29,110 bases of DNA. Source: a virus. The notes beneath the pieces are model-generated. The model saw only the letters and a list, made by a program, of their open reading frames with translations, had not been told where the DNA came from and ran no database searches. The position numbers were made by a program, and so were the translations under genes. Location: IMG/VR virus record IMGVR_UViG_3300050821_001117, positions 1 to 29,110 of that record; one strand, 5' to 3'. The stretch's first letter is position 1; each line of letters begins with the position of its first letter. Positions 9,428 to 28,005 of the stretch are shown here, piece after piece.

Positions 9428-9781
9428 TCACCCTATGATTAAAAAACGTATTTTCTGATCGGTAGCCGCATTACTCGCATGGTGAACTGTCGCACTCGCA
9501 TTCGTAGTGCCTACCGGAGGCAAAACCGTATCAACGTAAATCCCCGCAGCTATCGCTGTTGCCCCGTTAGCCGTCATTGCCATTGCTGGGCTAATCGCGC
9601 TATCAATGCTCAAACGTGGATCGCTGATAACCGTGGTTGTCGCATTGGCATTAAGCGTCACATCAAATGTCACGTTGATCTTGCCCTTTTTAGTAAAATT
9701 CAGCGCACGAGCAATTTGACGGCGATGTTCTTTTTCATCAGCTAGAAATTCCGGTACTGCCTGTGAGCCTAAAGTTGCCAT
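9428..9781 (-). CDS. Small virion/decoration-like protein (117 aa)
   Basis: I place the start at the ATG at 9781, which sits inside the last codons of the upstream gene (13-base overlap) behind a GTGAGGG ribosome site, rather than 12 codons further up. The N-terminus is charged and helical (EFLADEKEHRRQIARALNFT). The remainder is beta-rich (INVTFDVTLNANATTTVISD) and ends in KIRFLIIG. A helix followed by a beta domain would suit a head-decoration or tail-spike-base protein. The family is not recognised. Confidence 0.65.
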   Translation of the reverse strand: MATLGSQAVPEFLADEKEHRRQIARALNFTKKGKINVTFDVTLNANATTTVISDPRLSIDSAISPAMAMTANGATAIAAGIYVDTVLPPVGTTNASATVHHASNAATDQKIRFLIIG

Positions 9782-11391
9782 AATTCGGCCCTCACTTTGT
9801 CGATCACATCGCCCCAATGATAAGCGTCTGCCTGACGGAATATCTTCAGAGAGTCATACCAAACGCTATCTTCTCGGTCTAAAAGCCAACGCCAACAGCT
9901 AGAGTACTTGTTCAGCAAATATGTTGGCTTGCCCATAGCCGCAGCCATGTGAAGAACGGATGTATCGACGCTGATGACTAAATCGAGATGATGGATTATT
10001 GCCGCCGTATCAGACCATGATTGGCAATCTTTCATCGCGTCAATCATACGGCTATCGTCAATTTCTTGAGCGGCAAGTCCGGTTTGCAGGGAATAGAATG
10101 TGCAGTCGATCACATCTAGTAGGGGGCGAACAACGGGAAAACTGACGGAGCGCATTGCGTCCATCGCCACCAGATTCTTGTCATTCACACGCTTTCCGCC
10201 AGCCCAGCAGAGGCCAATCTTGCGGCCCTTGGCTTCGCCGACCCATTTCCATTTCTCGATATATTCAGGTTCGGCATTGAGATAGCCTTCACTGTACGGA
10301 ACGGTATCGATAGACGTTCCCAGCGCATAAGGCATTGAGCCTAGCGGGATACGATAATCAACCTCCGGCAATCCTGAAACGCCTGGATAATCGGTTGCCA
10401 TTGGCACGACTTCCGCATTCGGGAAATTATGCTTGAACAGGCTAACCATTGATTTATCAACCTCAAACAATGGAGATTCCATGTCTTTTACAAAGCGGCA
10501 ATACTGTAAAGCATCACCGAAACCCTGCTCGTGATAGATATGAACTCGGCCTTTATCGCCAAGCTTCCATTGCGGTTTATCAAAACGCTTTTCAGCGAGT
10601 TCATTTCCATATTCCTGCCGCATAAAGACAAATCGAACTTCATGATCGGCAAAGCCTTGTTCGTATTCGCCAAGGATAAGATGAGCTAAAGCCTTAGACC
10701 ATTGCGAAGCGTGACCGCTAATTTGGCTGTCCATGCCCTTGATGATATGCGGCATAGCCTTGCGGTATTCTAACTTTTCAGTCAGACAAACCGAATAACC
10801 ATAATTTGCGTCAGCGTGATCCGGTGACAGTTGAATAGCCTTATGATACCATTCCTCTGCTTCATCTTTCATGTTGGCAATGTAGAAACAGTTGGCGAGT
10901 TGGTAATATGCGTCTGGGTCTTTCGGGGCATTTTCCCCTGCTGCGCGGTAACATTCCGCCGCTTTTTCGACTTCACCATTCAATAGCCATGCTTGGGCTA
11001 GACTATGTTTGGATATGTGGGAGAGTGGATCAAGACCGTCGGCTTTTAAGGCTGTTTCCAAAGCTCTGGACTTCGCCCCTAAATGGCAACATGTTTGAGA
11101 TAAAAACGCCCAAAACATCCCCTTTGACGGGTCAAGCTTTGTTGCCTCATCCAACATGTCATGAGCAGTTCCATAGCGACCACGCCAAATTTCCACCATT
11201 CCAAGCTGATTAAGCACCTCTGCGCGCAAAAGCCTATGATCTGCGCCAGCTAAGGGATTAAGTAAGTCCAACGCCCGAAGTAATGAGGAAATGGAATCTA
11301 CGGTCTGATCAAGAAGCGCAAATTTCCTGCCGTCGCGGAATAGCTTCGCAGCTAATAAAAGCGCATCATCAAATTTAGGCTTAGTTTCCAT
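9769..11391 (-). CDS. TPR-repeat glycosyltransferase (540 aa)
   Basis: Residues 55-240 contain tandem TPR units (VLNQLGMVEIWRGRYGTAHD, PDAYYQLANCFYIANMKDEA, HADANYGYSVCLTEKLEYRK). Residues 280-535 match the catalytic half of bacterial TPR-glycosyltransferases with a GT-B fold: HIYHEQGFGDALQYCRFV (residues 284-301), KIGLCWAGGK (391-400), TFYSLQTG (431-438), then DLVISVDTSVLHMAAAMGKP (470-489) and WRWLLDREDSVWYDSLKIFR (500-519). The last blocks are usually involved in nucleotide-sugar binding. The likely role is sugar transfer to a protein, either a phage structural protein or a host surface component. It lies between the hub gene and small virion genes, so it is expressed late with the virion. 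The acceptor is unknown. It was probably acquired from a bacterial host. Confidence 0.88.
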   Translation of the reverse strand: METKPKFDDALLLAAKLFRDGRKFALLDQTVDSISSLLRALDLLNPLAGADHRLLRAEVLNQLGMVEIWRGRYGTAHDMLDEATKLDPSKGMFWAFLSQTCCHLGAKSRALETALKADGLDPLSHISKHSLAQAWLLNGEVEKAAECYRAAGENAPKDPDAYYQLANCFYIANMKDEAEEWYHKAIQLSPDHADANYGYSVCLTEKLEYRKAMPHIIKGMDSQISGHASQWSKALAHLILGEYEQGFADHEVRFVFMRQEYGNELAEKRFDKPQWKLGDKGRVHIYHEQGFGDALQYCRFVKDMESPLFEVDKSMVSLFKHNFPNAEVVPMATDYPGVSGLPEVDYRIPLGSMPYALGTSIDTVPYSEGYLNAEPEYIEKWKWVGEAKGRKIGLCWAGGKRVNDKNLVAMDAMRSVSFPVVRPLLDVIDCTFYSLQTGLAAQEIDDSRMIDAMKDCQSWSDTAAIIHHLDLVISVDTSVLHMAAAMGKPTYLLNKYSSCWRWLLDREDSVWYDSLKIFRQADAYHWGDVIDKVRAELWQL

Positions 11392-16316: not shown

Positions 16317-17225
16317 TTAGTTCCCCATTAATGCGGCACGTTCGCCGCGTGAAAGTTTGTTGTAAAGCACTGCAAATTGCTCATCCGACATATTCGCCAG
16401 CGTCTTGCTGTCCATCTTAGCACCAGATGATATTTGTGCGCCAAGAGCTTGTCCAATCGATTTAGACGCTGCTTGACCAGCCGCCACACGTTCGATCTGT
16501 GCTGCCGGGGTTTCCGCAGGCTTCGGAGCCACTACCGCATAACCACGCGCTTTGGCAATCGCATAAACAATCTGCGCTGGGTTGTTGCCGTTCTGGATAG
16601 CCTGTTGAGCCAATGCCAGTGTTTCCTGCTGAATGACTTGCTGGACTTGATGGGGCTGATACATCCCGCTTGCCATCAGCTCATCATGGCGCGACTTGAG
16701 CAGGAATTGCGATGCCGCACCATAATCAGGCGTTGATGCCACAAATTCGCTTTCAAGCTGCTGGGCGCGGTTCATGACCTGTTGGTTTTGCAAATCTCCG
16801 GCCTGTTTCGCCTCATTGCGCTTCTTATAGTCCATCAATTCTTGCAATTGCTGCTGGTTCATCTTCAGCGTACCCATTGCATCCTTTTCAGGATCGGGGA
16901 TAACCACCTCAGCAGGCTTTGCAGCATCGGGTTGACGCGTCAATACTTCAGTTAACAAACGCAGCCGTTCATCAGTCTTGCGTTGGTTTTCCGCATTAAG
17001 ACGCTTTTCTTCTTTCAGAGCTTCGCGGGTTTCTTGCAATGCCGCCAAGGGAACGGTCTTTGGTTCTGGGGTTTCTTTAACTTCAGCTTCCGGTACAGCT
17101 TCAACAACTACAGGTGCTTCCTCAACTACCGGCGCGGCTTCCACTTCCACAATCGGTGTTTCATTTCTCATCGCATCCAATGCGCTGGAGGTTTCAGAGT
17201 CAAGCTTTAGTTCATTACGCGCCAT
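16317..17225 (-). CDS. Capsid scaffolding protein (302 aa)
   Basis: The features are typical of scaffolds: a Glu/Val/Pro-rich acidic N-terminus (residues 20-60), an extended charged coiled coil (LAALQETREALKEEKRLNAE through about residue 150), Gln-rich helices (QPHQVQQVIQQETLALAQQA), and a short C-terminal helical tail (SDEQFAVLYNKLSRGERAAL). Gene order portal-scaffold-(small genes)-capsid matches known podovirus heads. The start overlaps the end of the portal gene by 11 bases behind CAGGGAGC. Scaffold sequences diverge fast, so the call rests on composition, size and position. Confidence 0.8.
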   Translation of the reverse strand: MARNELKLDSETSSALDAMRNETPIVEVEAAPVVEEAPVVVEAVPEAEVKETPEPKTVPLAALQETREALKEEKRLNAENQRKTDERLRLLTEVLTRQPDAAKPAEVVIPDPEKDAMGTLKMNQQQLQELMDYKKRNEAKQAGDLQNQQVMNRAQQLESEFVASTPDYGAASQFLLKSRHDELMASGMYQPHQVQQVIQQETLALAQQAIQNGNNPAQIVYAIAKARGYAVVAPKPAETPAAQIERVAAGQAASKSIGQALGAQISSGAKMDSKTLANMSDEQFAVLYNKLSRGERAALMGN

Positions 17226-19380
17226 TTGTAGCTCCCTGTTGTTGTAGTTGCTTTTCGGCTAGTTGAGTTTGTTTAACCTTGGTTGCCGCATCAATAACGG
17301 TCGATACGTGGTCGAGCGCCCCTTGATGCTGGGCTTGTCTTTCAGCCAGTTGCGTCTGCTTTATTTTAGTAGCGGCATCGACGATGGTTGATAGATGATC
17401 GAGAGTGCCTTGATGCTGAATCTGATCGGCCTTTGCGATGTCGAGAATGGAAGCTGATTTGTTCTTCATAGTCTCTGACTGTATTTTTTGGCTATCGAGC
17501 TGCGTTTGCTGAAGCTGCGCTTGAACCTTTGCCATATCGACTTGCGCTCTTTGTTGCGCGTCTTGGGATTCCATTTGCTGAACTTGTAAAGCCATTTGCG
17601 CGGCCTGAACTTTAGGATCAGGCTGTTTGGGCTGTGCGGCTTCTTTCTGCAATGCAGTCGTAATGTCGGCCACCAAACTATCTGGTAATGGGCTGTATTT
17701 GAGTACCGAAATCCATACATCCAACGGAATAGGCATCTTGGAAAGCATCGGCATAAGACCGCCGATAGCCGCCCAAGCCTGCTCCTTCAGATTGACGCTG
17801 TTAGGCGTATCATCGACGATAACGTCATATTTAACAGTGTCAGATTGACGAACCAAAGGCACATATTTAGCCGATTGTGGCCCCGCAATCTTTACCAGCC
17901 TACCGTCAGACAAATAATCCGTGATGTAATAAAGCAATAGCTTGCCTTGTTCCTTGCAATAACGCCGTTTGCTGTCAAACATCCCAGCAAGAATAGTCAT
18001 CGCAGCCTGTTTGCGCTGATGTTCAAGGATTCCAGGTTGATCACGGTCGGCTTGTCCAATCATTTCTAAGTTTATGCCCGAAGCATCCCGAATAGACTGA
18101 ATGGCGAACTGCATCATATTCTCTAAACCAGTAGGCCACGGCGTTTGCGGCTTAGGTATGATCTTTTGTCCGCTAATTGCCCCGTTTTTTACCAATGTGA
18201 CGGCGGCGGGATCAGCCCATTGGTCAATAGCCTCTTGAGGATTTGAGAACGCGCCTTCTTCAGCAATAATGCCGCCCTTGGCATTCGTATTGACGATATT
18301 CATGACCTGAGAAAGCCACTTATTCGCCCACTTCTGAGGGTCGATCATGGCGCGGACTAATCCGTAGAAAATACCCTTGTTGCGGTCACGCTTGCCGGTC
18401 ATAGCCTTAAGCGTAAAGCCACCCTCTTTCGGGCCGTCCTTCTTTTCCAATACTTTATTGCCAATCCACGCCTTGTAATACTTCTTGCGCTTTTGCTTGA
18501 CCGATGGAAACGGGGGGAAATCAGCAAGCCCCATACCTTCCGTCATCATGTGAAGGCGTTCTTGAAGCTTGGAATGTTCCTGCATCGTTAGAACTTGCTC
18601 GGCCTTTGTCATCGGATCGATAATCCGCATGACATCCTCATGCTCCCACCATTGAACTTCGACAATCCGGCAAAGGACGCGATTTTTGTCGATTAAATCA
18701 GTCTGATCTTCCGTGTAATAAACCGCCTGAATAGCATCATGAGGTGAACTCGCATCCGCACCCGTATCCATTGCCCATGAAGCGTGTAGATCGCTTTCAT
18801 CGGCATCAGGGAACATCTCATGACAAACCGACATCGGCAAATCACGAATGCGGGTAATGCGACGACCATCGGCAAAGTTCTTCTTCTTAGCCGCGCAATC
18901 GGGAACCATCTCCATTGGATCAACACGCTCAATCATGAGCTTGCCGTCTGGATCTTCATCGTAATCTAGGCGGGTTTCAGTATAGCCTATGCCGCAAATG
19001 ATCTGGTCACGGAAAGCATCGGACTCCTCATCCTCTGCATTACACTCATCCCGACACCACTTTGCAGCCCCCGTGAGCATCTCATCAACGCCAGCATCAC
19101 CAACATGGCGGGGAAAGTATCTAACCTCTTGGCGGTTGTTTATTTCAAGACCTGTTACGCTATCTACAACAGGATCAACGCGGTTGAATGTGATGATCGG
19201 ACGATTTTGTAGCTTGAGCATCGAACGATCTTCTTCTGACCATTGACATCCAGCCACAAAATCAAAATCCTCCCGCGCTTCTTGACGCCATTCTTTCCAA
19301 TGATTCTGATCTCGCCGAACGCCTTCTTTCAGGCGTTCAAACTCGGTCAAATCGCCGTCAATATCTGGCGTTTCGGGCAT
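17215..19380 (-). CDS. Portal protein, P22-like family (721 aa)
   Basis: The N-terminal pattern RRDQNHWKEWRQEAREDFDF, VAGCQWSEEDRSMLKLQNRP, IITFNRVDPVVDSVTGLEIN and NRQEVRYFPR is diagnostic of the P22-type portal group. IERVDPMEMVPD, GIFYGLVRAMIDPQKWANKW, INLEMIGQADRDQPGILEHQ and VIVDDTPNSVNLKEQ further support it. The length is close to the family norm (about 700). The C-terminal 120 residues are a Gln-rich helical barrel or coiled coil that ends in two tandem 29-residue units. It forms the dodecameric DNA entry ring. AAGGATTTG precedes the ATG. It begins 9 bases after the stop of the fibre-like gene. Confidence 0.92.
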   Translation of the reverse strand: MPETPDIDGDLTEFERLKEGVRRDQNHWKEWRQEAREDFDFVAGCQWSEEDRSMLKLQNRPIITFNRVDPVVDSVTGLEINNRQEVRYFPRHVGDAGVDEMLTGAAKWCRDECNAEDEESDAFRDQIICGIGYTETRLDYDEDPDGKLMIERVDPMEMVPDCAAKKKNFADGRRITRIRDLPMSVCHEMFPDADESDLHASWAMDTGADASSPHDAIQAVYYTEDQTDLIDKNRVLCRIVEVQWWEHEDVMRIIDPMTKAEQVLTMQEHSKLQERLHMMTEGMGLADFPPFPSVKQKRKKYYKAWIGNKVLEKKDGPKEGGFTLKAMTGKRDRNKGIFYGLVRAMIDPQKWANKWLSQVMNIVNTNAKGGIIAEEGAFSNPQEAIDQWADPAAVTLVKNGAISGQKIIPKPQTPWPTGLENMMQFAIQSIRDASGINLEMIGQADRDQPGILEHQRKQAAMTILAGMFDSKRRYCKEQGKLLLYYITDYLSDGRLVKIAGPQSAKYVPLVRQSDTVKYDVIVDDTPNSVNLKEQAWAAIGGLMPMLSKMPIPLDVWISVLKYSPLPDSLVADITTALQKEAAQPKQPDPKVQAAQMALQVQQMESQDAQQRAQVDMAKVQAQLQQTQLDSQKIQSETMKNKSASILDIAKADQIQHQGTLDHLSTIVDAATKIKQTQLAERQAQHQGALDHVSTVIDAATKVKQTQLAEKQLQQQGATNGA
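17228..17401 (-). repeat. Tandem 29-residue (87-bp) repeat at the portal C-terminus
   Basis: The end of the portal gene encodes two adjacent 29-residue units beginning HQGTLDHLSTIVDAATK and HQGALDHVSTVIDAATK, each followed by (I/V)KQTQLAE(R/K)Q. The amino acids are nearly identical while many third codon positions differ. This indicates an old duplication kept under protein-level selection. The units probably extend the helical barrel. Confidence 0.7.
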
Positions 19381-21347: not shown

Positions 21348-21562
21348 GATGTTGCCAAATTGTGGGCGTGTCTTTTCGGGATTAGCCGACATGCTATTTG
21401 CATAGCCTGTTCTTCCGTTACATGGCCTTCAAACACTATAAAATGGTTCCTCCGTTCACCGCCTGGATGATTGAACGAATAGCCGCGCATAAAAGTACCG
21501 TCTTCATCATGCGGCCATGAAGCTCTAATTTTTATATCCCAGTCACCTATGCCGTCATCCAT
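21344..21562 (-). CDS. Unknown small protein (72 aa)
   Basis: The start lies inside the last codons of the terminase gene (16-base overlap) with a strong AAGGAGA ribosome site. The sequence starts MDDGIGDWDIKIRASWPHDE and includes GGERRNHFIVFEGHVTEEQA. It looks like a compact alpha/beta protein without Cys clusters. It is translated with the terminase and coupled (ATGA) to the 70-aa gene. Family unrecognised. Confidence 0.62.
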   Translation of the reverse strand: MDDGIGDWDIKIRASWPHDEDGTFMRGYSFNHPGGERRNHFIVFEGHVTEEQAMQIACRLIPKRHAHNLATS

Positions 21563-22815
21563 GATCCGCTCTCCTTCGTTTTGCGTTTATAAGCTCTCGC
21601 TCCATCAGGAATAGCCATTGCTAGTCCGCGCATTGCATCGGCGGCGTGGCTCGTCCAATCGTGGCGCGGTCTATTCTTGAACGTTCTGAGCTTATCATCC
21701 CATTCGCGCTGATACTGCCTTAGGCATTCAAGACCCTGTCGTGTTTTATGTGAATCAAACCAGCAGCGCGGCAACATCAGGCGCGTGGCGTTAATGCCAT
21801 CTTCAACAGATTGTGCCTCGCAAACAGTCACAGCCAGTCCAAGGCTCTCCAATGTCTCAACACGGCTTCGTCCTGTGCCAAGTTCTCTCACACGCGCATC
21901 GTGGGGTAGATAATGTTCCTTATAGATATAAGGCTTATCTTTCAGAATCTTAACGTAATGATCTAACCCACACCCGCTATTCTCGTAATAATCAATCAGC
22001 CTTATTTCCGTCGCGGCAAGCTGGGCAAACCAAATGGATGTGCTGTCATCCATTCCCAAATCCCATGCGGTATAAACGGGCAATGATTTATCGTAACTAA
22101 CTGTCGTTATGCGCTTTTCGCTTTCTAAATCCGCAATCTCTCGGCTGTAATAAGCGCCCACTAGAGCAGCTTGGAACGAGCACTCAAATTCCTGAGCATA
22201 TTGTTCAACACTCATATATTTTGCGGCTTCATCAAGCTCGACTTTTGATATTATGCCCGTTTCACTGGCTTTATAGAGCGCAGCATACCAACTTGGGTCG
22301 TTAACCGCCGCGTCATATATTTCCCAGAACTGATTGCGCCCTTTAGGCGTACCAATAAATGTCGCGCTACCGCCACGATCCGCCAGCGCAGGACGTATTG
22401 CCTCAGACCACACGCGAGGCGACATGTCTGCGTATTCGTCCAATATAACATCGTCGTGATAAAGCCCACGAAGCCGATCAGGATTATCAGCCCCATACAA
22501 ACTAATACGAGCGCTATTAGGTAAATCCACCCTAAGCTCTGCCTCATTGTTTTTAGCTCCAGGAATAGATGATGTATAATACTTCAGATAATCCCATGCG
22601 ACGGTCTTAGCCTGTGCGAATAGGGGAGCTAGATACGAGCATCTTGGATTTGGTAATTCACATGTCAGTGCTGATTTCACAAGCTTATTGACAGCCAACA
22701 CCGTCTTACCGAACCGCCTATGACAAACCAGAACATTGAACCGCTTGAGGTTGTTGTGTATCTCAAGCTGTAATTTTCTAGGCTGGTATGGAATGACTAT
22801 GTGAACTTCTTTCAC
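21547..22815 (-). CDS. terL: Terminase large subunit (422 aa), GTG start
   Basis: ATPase motifs: Walker A CHRRFGKT at residues 31-38, Walker B VILDEYAD at 123-130 with the catalytic acidic pair D126-E127, and coupling motif ATFIGTPKG at 151-159. The nuclease half has the expected acidic residues in WDLGMDDSTS (D252), LPHDAR (D306) and SHAADAMRG (D393). It therefore should power packaging and cut concatemers. The length of about 420 aa is on the short side but normal for this class. The start is a GTG overlapping the small-subunit stop (GTGA), with translational coupling. This is among the most certain calls in the window. Confidence 0.94.
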   Translation of the reverse strand: MKEVHIVIPYQPRKLQLEIHNNLKRFNVLVCHRRFGKTVLAVNKLVKSALTCELPNPRCSYLAPLFAQAKTVAWDYLKYYTSSIPGAKNNEAELRVDLPNSARISLYGADNPDRLRGLYHDDVILDEYADMSPRVWSEAIRPALADRGGSATFIGTPKGRNQFWEIYDAAVNDPSWYAALYKASETGIISKVELDEAAKYMSVEQYAQEFECSFQAALVGAYYSREIADLESEKRITTVSYDKSLPVYTAWDLGMDDSTSIWFAQLAATEIRLIDYYENSGCGLDHYVKILKDKPYIYKEHYLPHDARVRELGTGRSRVETLESLGLAVTVCEAQSVEDGINATRLMLPRCWFDSHKTRQGLECLRQYQREWDDKLRTFKNRPRHDWTSHAADAMRGLAMAIPDGARAYKRKTKESGSWMTA

Positions 22816-23943: not shown

Positions 23944-24650
23944 CCGGCACTCAGGTTCTTTAGGCATTGCGCGACTAGCTCGGAAACTTTTGCTTTATCG
24001 GCATCCGTTGGGTTTACATAATCAGGCTGCGATTTCTTGAACTCGATGAACTTTTGCTCTTTTGAAGCCGTGAGAATGGCATTGCGTGGTTTTAAAAGCT
24101 TTTCACATCCATCAATAAGCTCTTTAAGAACTGGGAAAAATACGTTGTTTCTCGCCCATTCACGGCAAACAGTTTGAACGATATCTATCGGATATTCCCT
24201 CAATTCCTCAGTGATTGCACCGAGTGATAGTTCCATATCAAACTCACCCTCTTTGCGCTTGGCGGTAAGGCATCTCAGCCGCGCAACCTCAATGACTACT
24301 TTTTCTTCCAAAGCGGGTTTTGTGTAATGTTCTAAAGCTTTTATCCAACGATCAGAAAGGCACGCTTTCAGGCTCACCTTGTAGCCCGTTACCTCGTAAT
24401 CTTTGTTCGTCGTTTCTTCGACCACGATCTGCGAGCCTAAGTCCGACTTCAACGATTGAAGCAGTTGTTTGTTGACTGTTTCCGCGTCCGGTTTTGTTTC
24501 CGCCAAACTTCGGAGCGTTACCAATCCAGGTGAAGAAACCTCTGTCCCAATCGACGTATTCGACGCCTTTTGCGAGGCGATCATTGACGAATTGCTCACC
24601 AAGTTCGCTTGCGTTGAGTCCGAGGGATTGGCATTTTGCTCTGTGTTCAT
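23940..24650 (-). CDS. Helicase-loader-like replication protein (236 aa)
   Basis: The ATG at 24650 has a good ribosome site (TTGGAGTCCAAACG). Residues 1-90 are Ser/Asn/Thr-rich and probably disordered. From residue 95 the protein is helical with ARLRCLTAKRKEGEFDMELS, LGAITEELREYPIDIVQTVC and REWARNNVFFPVLKELIDGC, a layout seen in alphaproteobacterial phage replication accessory proteins. There, a YPxDxV...W...FxPxLxEL helical unit follows the initiator gene. The first 299 bases lie inside the 3' part of the initiator gene in another frame. A possible GTG (residue 92, V of VSLKAC) would remove most of the overlap but has a poorly spaced ribosome site. Confidence 0.75.
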   Translation of the reverse strand: MNTEQNANPSDSTQANLVSNSSMIASQKASNTSIGTEVSSPGLVTLRSLAETKPDAETVNKQLLQSLKSDLGSQIVVEETTNKDYEVTGYKVSLKACLSDRWIKALEHYTKPALEEKVVIEVARLRCLTAKRKEGEFDMELSLGAITEELREYPIDIVQTVCREWARNNVFFPVLKELIDGCEKLLKPRNAILTASKEQKFIEFKKSQPDYVNPTDADKAKVSELVAQCLKNLSAG

Positions 24651-25149
24651 CGTTTGGACTCCAATTTGCTGGCAACGGGATTTGTTTTGGTTTGGTTTTC
24701 TTCGCAGCCAGCGCGTTGGGGGCTTGCGTATCTATATTTTCTTCTTTCCTTTCCTCTATATTCCCTTCCCTTCCCTTAGAGAGCGAGGATTCGCGAGGAT
24801 TCGCGAGAACATCCGAGGCATCAACGAGCGCGATAGCAGGGATCGTTGATTTTGTTGGATGATCTATTTTCTGGTGTTTGGTGAAACCCTTGATGTGGAG
24901 ATATTTTTCGCCACACACGGAATACTCAACCAAAACACCTTGGTTGATAAGTTCCATAACTAGACATTCTGCATCGACGTTATCCGAAGGCAGAATTTGC
25001 ATTTTCAGTTTCTTGGAACTCCTCGCGAGGTTTCCGCTATCATCGGCGAAATTCCACATCCCTATGAAAAACAATCGAGCGGTCGGAGAGCATTCGACAA
25101 GCTTCTCGTCTGTCCAGAAATCCGGTTTAATTGTGCGTATTCTAGCCAT
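24352..25149 (-). CDS. Phage replication initiator-like protein (265 aa)
   Basis: I choose the ATG at 25149 (MARIRTIKPDFWTDEKLVEC). The longer frame to 25317 lies in the preceding gene. Residues 1-95 match the phage N-terminal replication domain RIRTIKPDFWTDEKLVECSP, then LFFIGMWNFADDSGNLARSS, KKLKMQILPSDN and YLHIKGFTKHQKIDHPTKS, probably a winged helix. Residues 110-160 are a charged, low-complexity linker (RESSLSKGREGNIEERKEEN). Residues 160-218 form a second domain ending VDWDRGFFTWIGNAPKFGGN, then a 45-residue tail that overlaps the next gene. Linker DNA holds direct repeats and AT-rich sequence, a candidate origin. Confidence 0.82.
   Translation of the reverse strand: MARIRTIKPDFWTDEKLVECSPTARLFFIGMWNFADDSGNLARSSKKLKMQILPSDNVDAECLVMELINQGVLVEYSVCGEKYLHIKGFTKHQKIDHPTKSTIPAIALVDASDVLANPRESSLSKGREGNIEERKEENIDTQAPNALAAKKTKPKQIPLPANWSPNDEHRAKCQSLGLNASELGEQFVNDRLAKGVEYVDWDRGFFTWIGNAPKFGGNKTGRGNSQQTTASIVEVGLRLADRGRRNDEQRLRGNGLQGEPESVPF
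24731..24818. other. Candidate replication origin: iterated repeats and AT-rich tract inside the initiator gene
   Basis: Within the initiator linker, GCGAGGATTC occurs twice in direct tandem (24783-24792, 24793-24802) with a third partial copy (24803-24807). It is followed on the left by (CCCTT)-type repeats near 24762-24777 and an AT-rich, polypyrimidine tract containing TCTATATT twice (24731-24738, 24755-24762). The pattern of iterons beside an AT-rich region inside the initiator linker is like lambda O/ori. The GCGAGGATTC copies each contain GATTC, a GANTC (CcrM-type) site. Origin function is an inference only. Confidence 0.4.
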
Positions 25150-25351
25150 TCGCCGTACCACCATTAAACAGAGATAACTGCATCCCGACGATAAACGGCA
25201 CGACAAACCGCTTCTTTGGCTTCTCGTAGGCGATGCCGCAATGATGTGGACAATATGAATATCCAATAGCCTTTGGCTCACCACAGAAGTAAAAGTCATT
25301 CGTCTGGGGGTCACCACTTGGGAACTGGCAACCTTCTGGAAAATCGATCAT
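25142..25351 (-). CDS. GcrA C-terminal-domain-like mini-protein (69 aa)
   Basis: I choose the ATG at 25351, with GGAGGG seven bases upstream, overlapping the previous stop as ATGA. The start region MIDFPEGCQFPSGDPQTNDF, followed by YFCGEPKAIGYSYCPHHCGI and AYEKPKKR, closely matches the conserved zinc-knuckle motif at the GcrA C-terminus: CxWPxGDP...FxFCG...PxxxYCxxHxxxAY. In Caulobacter this part contacts sigma-70 while the N-terminal HTH finds methylated GANTC sites. Here no HTH is present; only this domain plus a 20-residue hydrophobic tail remains. It may modulate host RNA polymerase or compete with host GcrA. It lies in the early replication operon. Confidence 0.8.
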   Translation of the reverse strand: MIDFPEGCQFPSGDPQTNDFYFCGEPKAIGYSYCPHHCGIAYEKPKKRFVVPFIVGMQLSLFNGGTANG

Positions 25352-25695
25352 TGCATCCCTCCAATAGGGTTGTATTGCCATAGTCTTTGAATGCCTGAAT
25401 GACGCGAAAGCCTTTGGCTCTCCGTTGTGCGTCCGGTGTATTTCAGCTTTGGTGACTTCATGACGCTGCCCCAGCTTTTAGGTGTTAGGGCTTCCAGAAC
25501 ATCCGGCAAACGTTCAGCTAGGTATTCATGAACATGGTCGGCGCATACCGTGCCGTTGCGCTTGGCAAGCATTATGGCAATGTTGCGTGCGCGATTAACT
25601 GGCTCATCAAATGGATATGTTGCAGCCTTAGCCATTCCAACATCGCGCAGACGATTGGATTCCGCAGCATCGAATATGGTTGCCTGAATAGTCAT
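25348..25695 (-). CDS. Unknown early protein, possible winged helix (115 aa)
   Basis: The ATG at 25695 begins MTIQATIFDAAESNRLRDVG. Residues 33-110 (VNRARNIAIMLAKRNGTVCA, DHVHEYLAERLPDVLEALTP, KSWGSVMKSPKLKYTGR, SQRLSRHSGIQRLWQ) resemble the small helical/winged domain of a phage early protein group in which IAxxLAxxxGxVxxDxV...W...F..xG...SxRxxxHxxxxxxW recurs. It could bind DNA. It is followed by the GcrA-like gene with ATGA coupling. In this frame the sequence stays open about 24 codons upstream (to the RusA stop) without an ATG, GTG or TTG, so the chosen start is favoured. Confidence 0.7.
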   Translation of the reverse strand: MTIQATIFDAAESNRLRDVGMAKAATYPFDEPVNRARNIAIMLAKRNGTVCADHVHEYLAERLPDVLEALTPKSWGSVMKSPKLKYTGRTTESQRLSRHSGIQRLWQYNPIGGMQ

Positions 25696-25768: not shown

Positions 25769-26131
25769 CTATGCGACTCCTATCGTGACATCTACGCGGG
25801 GATTTTTTGCATCAGGCTCACCAATGTCTAAGGTGATAGGCCTGAATTGCTTGTCGTTAATACCCAGTCCGGTTGCCACGCCATCCAGCGCGTACTTACT
25901 GCGGGATAGGAGTCCGTCTAAATCGAAGCATCTGCGATCAGCAGGAACAAATAGCAACGACAGAGAAACGTATTCTTGACCTAATTTCCCACGAAATGGA
26001 TAGGCAAGATAATGTCCGGCTTCCTTTTGAGCTTTGCGTTTTTCTTCCTTCTGCGCCCAATGCAGACGAGCGTTAGGAGCAAGTTCTTTAGGAGGAAATG
26101 GAAGTGTGAATGTGATTTCAGCGTTTGGCAT
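25769..26131 (-). CDS. rusA: RusA-type Holliday junction resolvase (120 aa)
   Basis: I choose the ATG at 26131 (MPNAEITFTLPFPPKELAPN), overlapping the preceding gene by 14 bases. An upstream ATG 8 codons away is less likely. The family pattern is present: LPFPPKELAPNARLHW at residues 9-25, then DRRCFDLDGLLSRSKYALDG at 65-84 and VATGLGINDKQFRPITLDIG. Catalytic acidic residues would be D70 and D72 (in DLDG, where the family usually has DLDN), D83 and D93, with K79 as the probable catalytic lysine. The protein has the usual length of about 120. It resolves branched DNA during replication or recombination. Confidence 0.9.
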   Translation of the reverse strand: MPNAEITFTLPFPPKELAPNARLHWAQKEEKRKAQKEAGHYLAYPFRGKLGQEYVSLSLLFVPADRRCFDLDGLLSRSKYALDGVATGLGINDKQFRPITLDIGEPDAKNPRVDVTIGVA

Positions 26132-27282: not shown

Positions 27283-28005
27283 GTGGATTGTATGCAGAAC
27301 GACTCAATCAGAGCCTTAGTGGCGCGTAAAATCGCTGAACTGGGCAAAAACATGAAAAGCACCTCATTAGAAATGGGTGCTAACGAAACTTATATTCAGC
27401 AGTACTTGAAAAGGGGTATTCCTGATTATCTTCCAGAAGATATGAGGGCGGCATTGGCGAAGGTATTGGGAATAAAAGAAACTGTCTTAAAACCAGGCCA
27501 CCAGAAAGAAGATGCTGCCATAACTCAAGGCAATTTTCAATCACCCCATCAAGTTATTGACTCCGCAAAAGAGAATGCCCTAAAGAACCCGCATACGGAT
27601 GTACGTCTTACTTTCGATGATCCGTATACTTCTGAGTATATCCCGATTTTGGGCAATGCGAATGGTTCTAAGGAAGCGGTAATGTTAAATTTTAGTGATC
27701 CTATTGGAAAAGTTAAAAGATATAGTAGCCAAGAAAATGTGAAAGGTGCTTTTGCTCTATATGCGCGAGGAACCAGCATGTATCCGCGATACAAGGGTGG
27801 AGAACTCGTCTTTTTGGTGCCTAATAGAGAGGTCACGATAGGCAATGATTGCGTTGTTGAGCTAAACAACGGTGAGGCATATCTAAAAGAATTTGTCAAA
27901 AGGACAGACAAAGAGATTATATGCAGGCAGTTCAACCCCGCTAAAGAATGGAAGCGTCCACTATCCGAAATTAAGGCAATTCATGCTGTGGTTGGAAGAG
28001 GATGA
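27283..28005 (+). CDS. S24-family phage repressor (CI/C2-like), 240 aa
   Basis: The N-terminal 65 residues form an HTH (RALVARKIAELGKNMKSTSL then EMGANETYIQQYLKRGIPDY). The C-terminal half has the S24 fold: ALYARGTSMYPRYKGGELVF with catalytic Ser165 in GTSMYPRY, and YLKEF with Lys202. A linker of about 50 residues joins them. No clear Ala-Gly cleavage site is seen between them (GNANG at 124-128 is the nearest), so self-cleavage is uncertain. The start is either GTG 27283 (AAGGAA upstream) or ATG 27292. It is the master lysogeny regulator, lies between the two operator regions and is transcribed rightward. The downstream small gene overlaps as ATGA. Confidence 0.88.
   Translation: MDCMQNDSIRALVARKIAELGKNMKSTSLEMGANETYIQQYLKRGIPDYLPEDMRAALAKVLGIKETVLKPGHQKEDAAITQGNFQSPHQVIDSAKENALKNPHTDVRLTFDDPYTSEYIPILGNANGSKEAVMLNFSDPIGKVKRYSSQENVKGAFALYARGTSMYPRYKGGELVFLVPNREVTIGNDCVVELNNGEAYLKEFVKRTDKEIICRQFNPAKEWKRPLSEIKAIHAVVGRG

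Follow-up and report, generated by a model that had tools for sequence, protein, structure and literature searches.

A viral record from IMG/VR, analysed over its full 29,110 nucleotides and called the window here, contains an open reading frame whose 69-residue product, MIDFPEGCQFPSGDPQTNDFYFCGEPKAIGYSYCPHHCGIAYEKPKKRFVVPFIVGMQLSLFNGGTANG, is supported by sequence profiles and a structural model as a protein that folds like the zinc knuckle of the GcrA sigma-interacting domain (SID). Unrelated phage records (G047–G053) also encode SID-only proteins. Full-length GcrA was already known from phiCbK-like phages (PMC3556154), and the new observation is that SID-only GcrA proteins are recurrent in phages, a form for which no report was found in the open-access literature.

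The stand-alone SID and its gene

The 69-residue protein matches the Pfam family PF07750 (GcrA) with 39.3 bits and E=1.1e-9 (cut-off 26.9), so that the GcrA similarity proposed in an earlier note on this DNA passes a profile search. The match spans only positions 110–149 of the 155 in the profile. The NCBIfam GcrA equivalog NF050816 aligns over positions 116–155 of 173 only and, at 27.6 bits, stays below its cut-off of 280, which indicates that the protein is not a full GcrA. A phmmer search of the PDB retrieves 5yix_B, the GcrA-SID bound to sigma70 (4.8e-5), and 7ye1_G (1.8e-4). The AlphaFold2 model, based on a 60-row alignment, has a pLDDT of 95–96 over residues 11–40 and gives the 69 residues alone a GcrA-SID fold, so that the reading in the earlier note also passes structure prediction. 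The top three Foldseek matches of this model in the PDB are all GcrA structures (5yix_B, 7ye2_G and 7ye1_G), with an rmsd of 1.0 Å over 37 residues for 5yix_B. Their E-values are modest (0.017–0.1) because the protein is tiny; their probability is 0.99–1.00, and the next match reaches 0.20. No Pfam, PHROGs or NCBIfam match links the protein to AsiA, gp39 or P7, and no Pfam or NCBIfam match links it to Crl or RbpA; the confident PDB fold matches are to GcrA only.

The segments previously read as the C-terminal knuckle of GcrA (CQFPSGDP, FYFCG and YCPHHCGIAY) are all present in the product. Four putative zinc ligands, C8, C23, C34 and H37, are invariant in an alignment of 60 diverse phage SIDs. 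The pattern that gathered these SIDs specified C8 and C23 and made no demand on C34 and H37, so the invariance of the latter two is independent evidence for a CCCH site, and we infer that this knuckle binds zinc. The family signature CKWPIGDP is altered to CQFPSGDP in the 69-residue protein; the F occurs in other family members and the Q is rare. This change could weaken the contact with sigma. It also speaks for a relic, or for a zinc knuckle that has taken on another partner after the loss of sigma binding, and viral contigs contain no near relatives of this exact protein with which selection on the gene itself could be gauged. Such a decayed or diverted function is nevertheless improbable, because the protein retains its fold core and the complete set of four ligands, the reading frame is clean, with a strong Shine-Dalgarno sequence and coupling, and purifying selection acts on SID-only relatives in other records.

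The tight coupling to early genes that the earlier note described from ATGA and GGAGGG can be read directly in the sequence (Table 1). The SID start shares the ATGA at 25348–25351 with the upstream 115-residue frame, and a further overlap, at 25152, joins the SID stop to the ATG of the replication gene. Initiation at an alternative in-frame codon, at 25381, would give 79 residues; by eye, this longer version lacks a Shine-Dalgarno sequence as strong as the GGAGGG of the ATG at 25351. From the gene order, the 69-residue protein would be made early, together with the replication genes. The related phage RHph_Y1_10, whose portal is 44% identical to that of the window, carries a 168-residue GcrA-like protein with both helix-turn-helix (HTH) and SID in the equivalent module, which lies between RusA/replication and terminase. 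Among the structural genes of the window, a 540-residue protein (9769–11391, minus strand) appears by eye to be TPR-repeat-like.

Table 1. Position of the SID gene, its features and its neighbours in the window.
Feature	Position	Strand	Basis or remark
Portal protein	17215..19380	-	best named-phage relatives infect Paracoccus, Rhizobium
Terminase large subunit, downstream of early genes	21547..22815	-	phrog_2 1.5e-37
Phage replication initiation protein, start overlaps SID stop	24352..25152	-	phrog_1408 E=1.5e-39
Stand-alone GcrA SID (predicted)	25142..25351	-	Pfam, PDB, AlphaFold2 and Foldseek; stop codon 25142-25144
Putative zinc-knuckle ligands C8 (25328-25330), C23 (25283-25285), C34 (25250-25252), H37 (25241-25243)	25241..25330	-	alignment
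115-residue frame upstream of SID, no family match	25348..25695	-	profile searches
GGAGGG Shine-Dalgarno, 5 nt ahead of ATG 25351	25357..25362	-	direct reading
RusA-like Holliday junction resolvase	25769..26131	-	phrog_34 E=9.9e-15
CI-like S24 repressor, divergent from early operon	27283..28005	+	Peptidase_S24 2.9e-8; phrog_4 1.9e-21

Absence of the DNA-reading half and recurrence in phages

The N-terminal HTH of GcrA is the reader of methylated GANTC. The claim that the phage protein has no HTH stood up: the profile of the GcrA DNA-binding domain (DBD) has zero matches in the six frames of the whole 29,110-nt window, and PF07750 matches at one single place in the record. A frameshifted or split full-length GcrA was considered and rejected, since none of the frames of the window, of the SID-only loci or of larger stretches of their records contains a DBD. 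The SID gene of the window is therefore not frameshifted, and its product, which has no DNA-binding domain, has no means of being recruited to promoters with methylated GANTC.

A scan of IMG/VR with an SID pattern matched at least 120 stretches, and full-length GcrA-like proteins are the majority among the matches listed. At least seven further stretches from uncultivated phages (L012, L074, L062, L081, L086, L079 and L138) encode an SID that lacks the GcrA DBD, and in six of the proteins Pfam confirms the SID. Over the whole SID-only records (G047–G053), no PF07750 match starts before profile position 66. The dN/dS values of three SID-only pairs are 0.33, 0.29 and 0.20 (dS is close to saturation for L081/L086), which argues that the form is maintained by purifying selection. 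The homologues in named phages and plasmids with checked coordinates are all full-length, at about 168–313 residues, and no SID was found in the stretches examined of IMG/VR terminase relatives (L142 onwards). The recurrence suggests a reused phage tool to take over or block host transcription.

Two candidates were discarded. L027, which resembled an SID-only case, is a full-length GcrA cut at the end of the locus, and the lone genome-contig match, L222, is a chance TSSDPQTNDFY match within a large protein; its phylum gave 0 of 46 matches, which serves as a negative control only. A divergent marine SID-only family on short contigs (L018–L021) scores 19.8–24.1 bits in Pfam, under the cut-off; its members have lost the GDP motif and kept the Cys/His ligands, and their neighbours include, by eye, a lysozyme-like protein and a DnaA-domain-like protein. 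The SID-only protein of L079 (4112–4573) bears a long Lys/Ala/Pro-rich histone-like tail that could give non-specific DNA binding.

In five further stretches (L057, L087, L110, L132 and L136), the GcrA SID is preceded by an HTH-like N-terminus that goes unrecognised by the GcrA-DBD profile, an architecture that suggests that the SID is a mobile sigma-docking module. Since these proteins join the SID to other HTH-like domains, the window might encode a split version of them, with the work of an activator shared between two proteins, the SID and a separate phage DNA-binding protein that targets the promoters. The 115-residue product, whose gene overlaps the SID by the ATGA, is one candidate for the second protein. 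It has no family match, and its single-sequence AlphaFold2 model is helical and of low confidence with no significant PDB fold match, so that neither family search, model nor fold search supports it as the DNA-binding partner. The SID-only stretches L012, L081 and L138, moreover, have no common partner among the neighbours listed, and we regard a two-protein activator as very unlikely.

GANTC avoidance, probable host and proposed mode of action

GANTC, the CcrM site, occurs 49 times in the window against 99 expected (0.49). In a comparison of 16 similar sites, six of the seven SID-only records tested avoid GANTC more than any other. Two alphaproteobacterial phage relatives contain 3 against 135 and 56 against 183 expected sites; the avoidance is extreme in Paracoccus phage vB_PmaP_KLEP18-1 (L223; 3 against about 135). 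Two betaproteobacterial phages with related terminases have 0.86–1.02 of the expectation. Genomes bearing CcrM themselves have few GANTC sites (PMC3973325). From the portal relatives and these GANTC data, the host of the window virus is probably an alphaproteobacterium, and the avoidance in SID-only carriers points to GANTC-methylating alphaproteobacteria as their hosts. It may reflect just alphaproteobacterial hosts or restriction and not GcrA biology. A Pelagibacter phage without an annotated GcrA has 0.58 of the expected GANTC, and GGNCC (21 against 88) and CCNGG (32 against 92) are both avoided more than GANTC in the window, perhaps as host restriction sites. GANTC is absent from the intergenic region between CI and the early genes. 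With such GANTC-poor DNA, phage transcription is unlikely to depend on methyl-GANTC.

Records labelled as cyanophages (L002, L004 and L235; Synechococcus phages Ssp-JY42, Yong-M4-211) carry full-length GcrA, and GANTC is strongly avoided in Ssp-JY42 (48 against 143). Both features suggest that these phages may in fact infect an alphaproteobacterium that was present in a non-axenic culture.

The 69-residue gene probably descended from a phage GcrA that shed its DNA-reading half. By homology, the free SID would bind the primary sigma factor of the host at its region 2 and, with no DNA-binding domain, would exert no promoter choice. We tentatively propose, at slightly short of an even chance, that the detached SID occupies the GcrA site on the holoenzyme and keeps host GcrA off. 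The displacement of host GcrA would turn down the GcrA/CcrM programme and free polymerase for phage promoters. This competition is preferred, not strongly, because the DBD has been lost from a GcrA-like arrangement and the phage DNA is GANTC-poor.

The SID of GcrA belongs to an activator that speeds open-complex formation, and the free SID might therefore activate rather than block. Acting on sigma2 independently of methylation, it would stabilise open complexes for phage, perhaps all, promoters. Direct activation is a close rival of GcrA blocking, if in itself a rather unlikely one: the sigma2/NCR surfaces bound by GcrA, Crl and RbpA overlap, and each of the three proteins promotes open-complex formation (PMC7403470), and the phage has kept the SID and discarded the methyl-DNA reader, but the specificity of GcrA stems from its DNA-binding half. 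If competition with GcrA holds more widely, SID-only proteins could form a recurrent, previously undescribed class of phage effectors that take up the site of GcrA on sigma70. Phages of GANTC-methylating alphaproteobacteria would then have evolved an anti-GcrA strategy several times, one that uncouples the methylation-driven cell cycle of the host from infection; we consider this broader proposal possible rather than probable.

Comparison with known regulators

Phage GcrA homologues have so far been interpreted as enhancing the host S-phase programme, which phiCbK GcrA was proposed to promote (PMC3556154), and an alteration of the host cell state by phiCbK-like phages with GcrA has been raised as a possibility (PMC9437464). 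If it binds sigma70, the SID-only form would be a natural separation-of-function tool with which to ask whether sigma docking alone activates or competes with GcrA, and it would reveal a phage attack on an epigenetic cell-cycle circuit at the point where the circuit contacts polymerase.

Compared with GcrA of Caulobacter crescentus (173 residues; PF07750; 5yix, 7ye1 and 7ye2), the phage protein shares the SID sequence, the pattern of CCCH ligands and the predicted fold. It has 69 residues rather than 173 and lacks both the linker and the methyl-GANTC-reading HTH of the N-terminus. The homologues in alphaproteobacterial phages, namely phiCbK gp222 and its relatives and those of RHph_X2_24, vB_BgoS-Bajun and RHph_Y1_10, likewise provide a phage-encoded SID; these proteins are full-length (about 168–235 residues), whereas the 69-residue protein cannot read methylated DNA. 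Crl and RbpA are similarly small and act via sigma region 2, as is expected for the SID, and their sequences are unrelated to it. The functional analogy extends to AsiA, gp39 and P7, which are likewise small phage proteins of the early phase that act on the sigma factor or RNA polymerase of the host. These three proteins target sigma4 or the beta-flap, in contrast to sigma2, the expected target of the SID.
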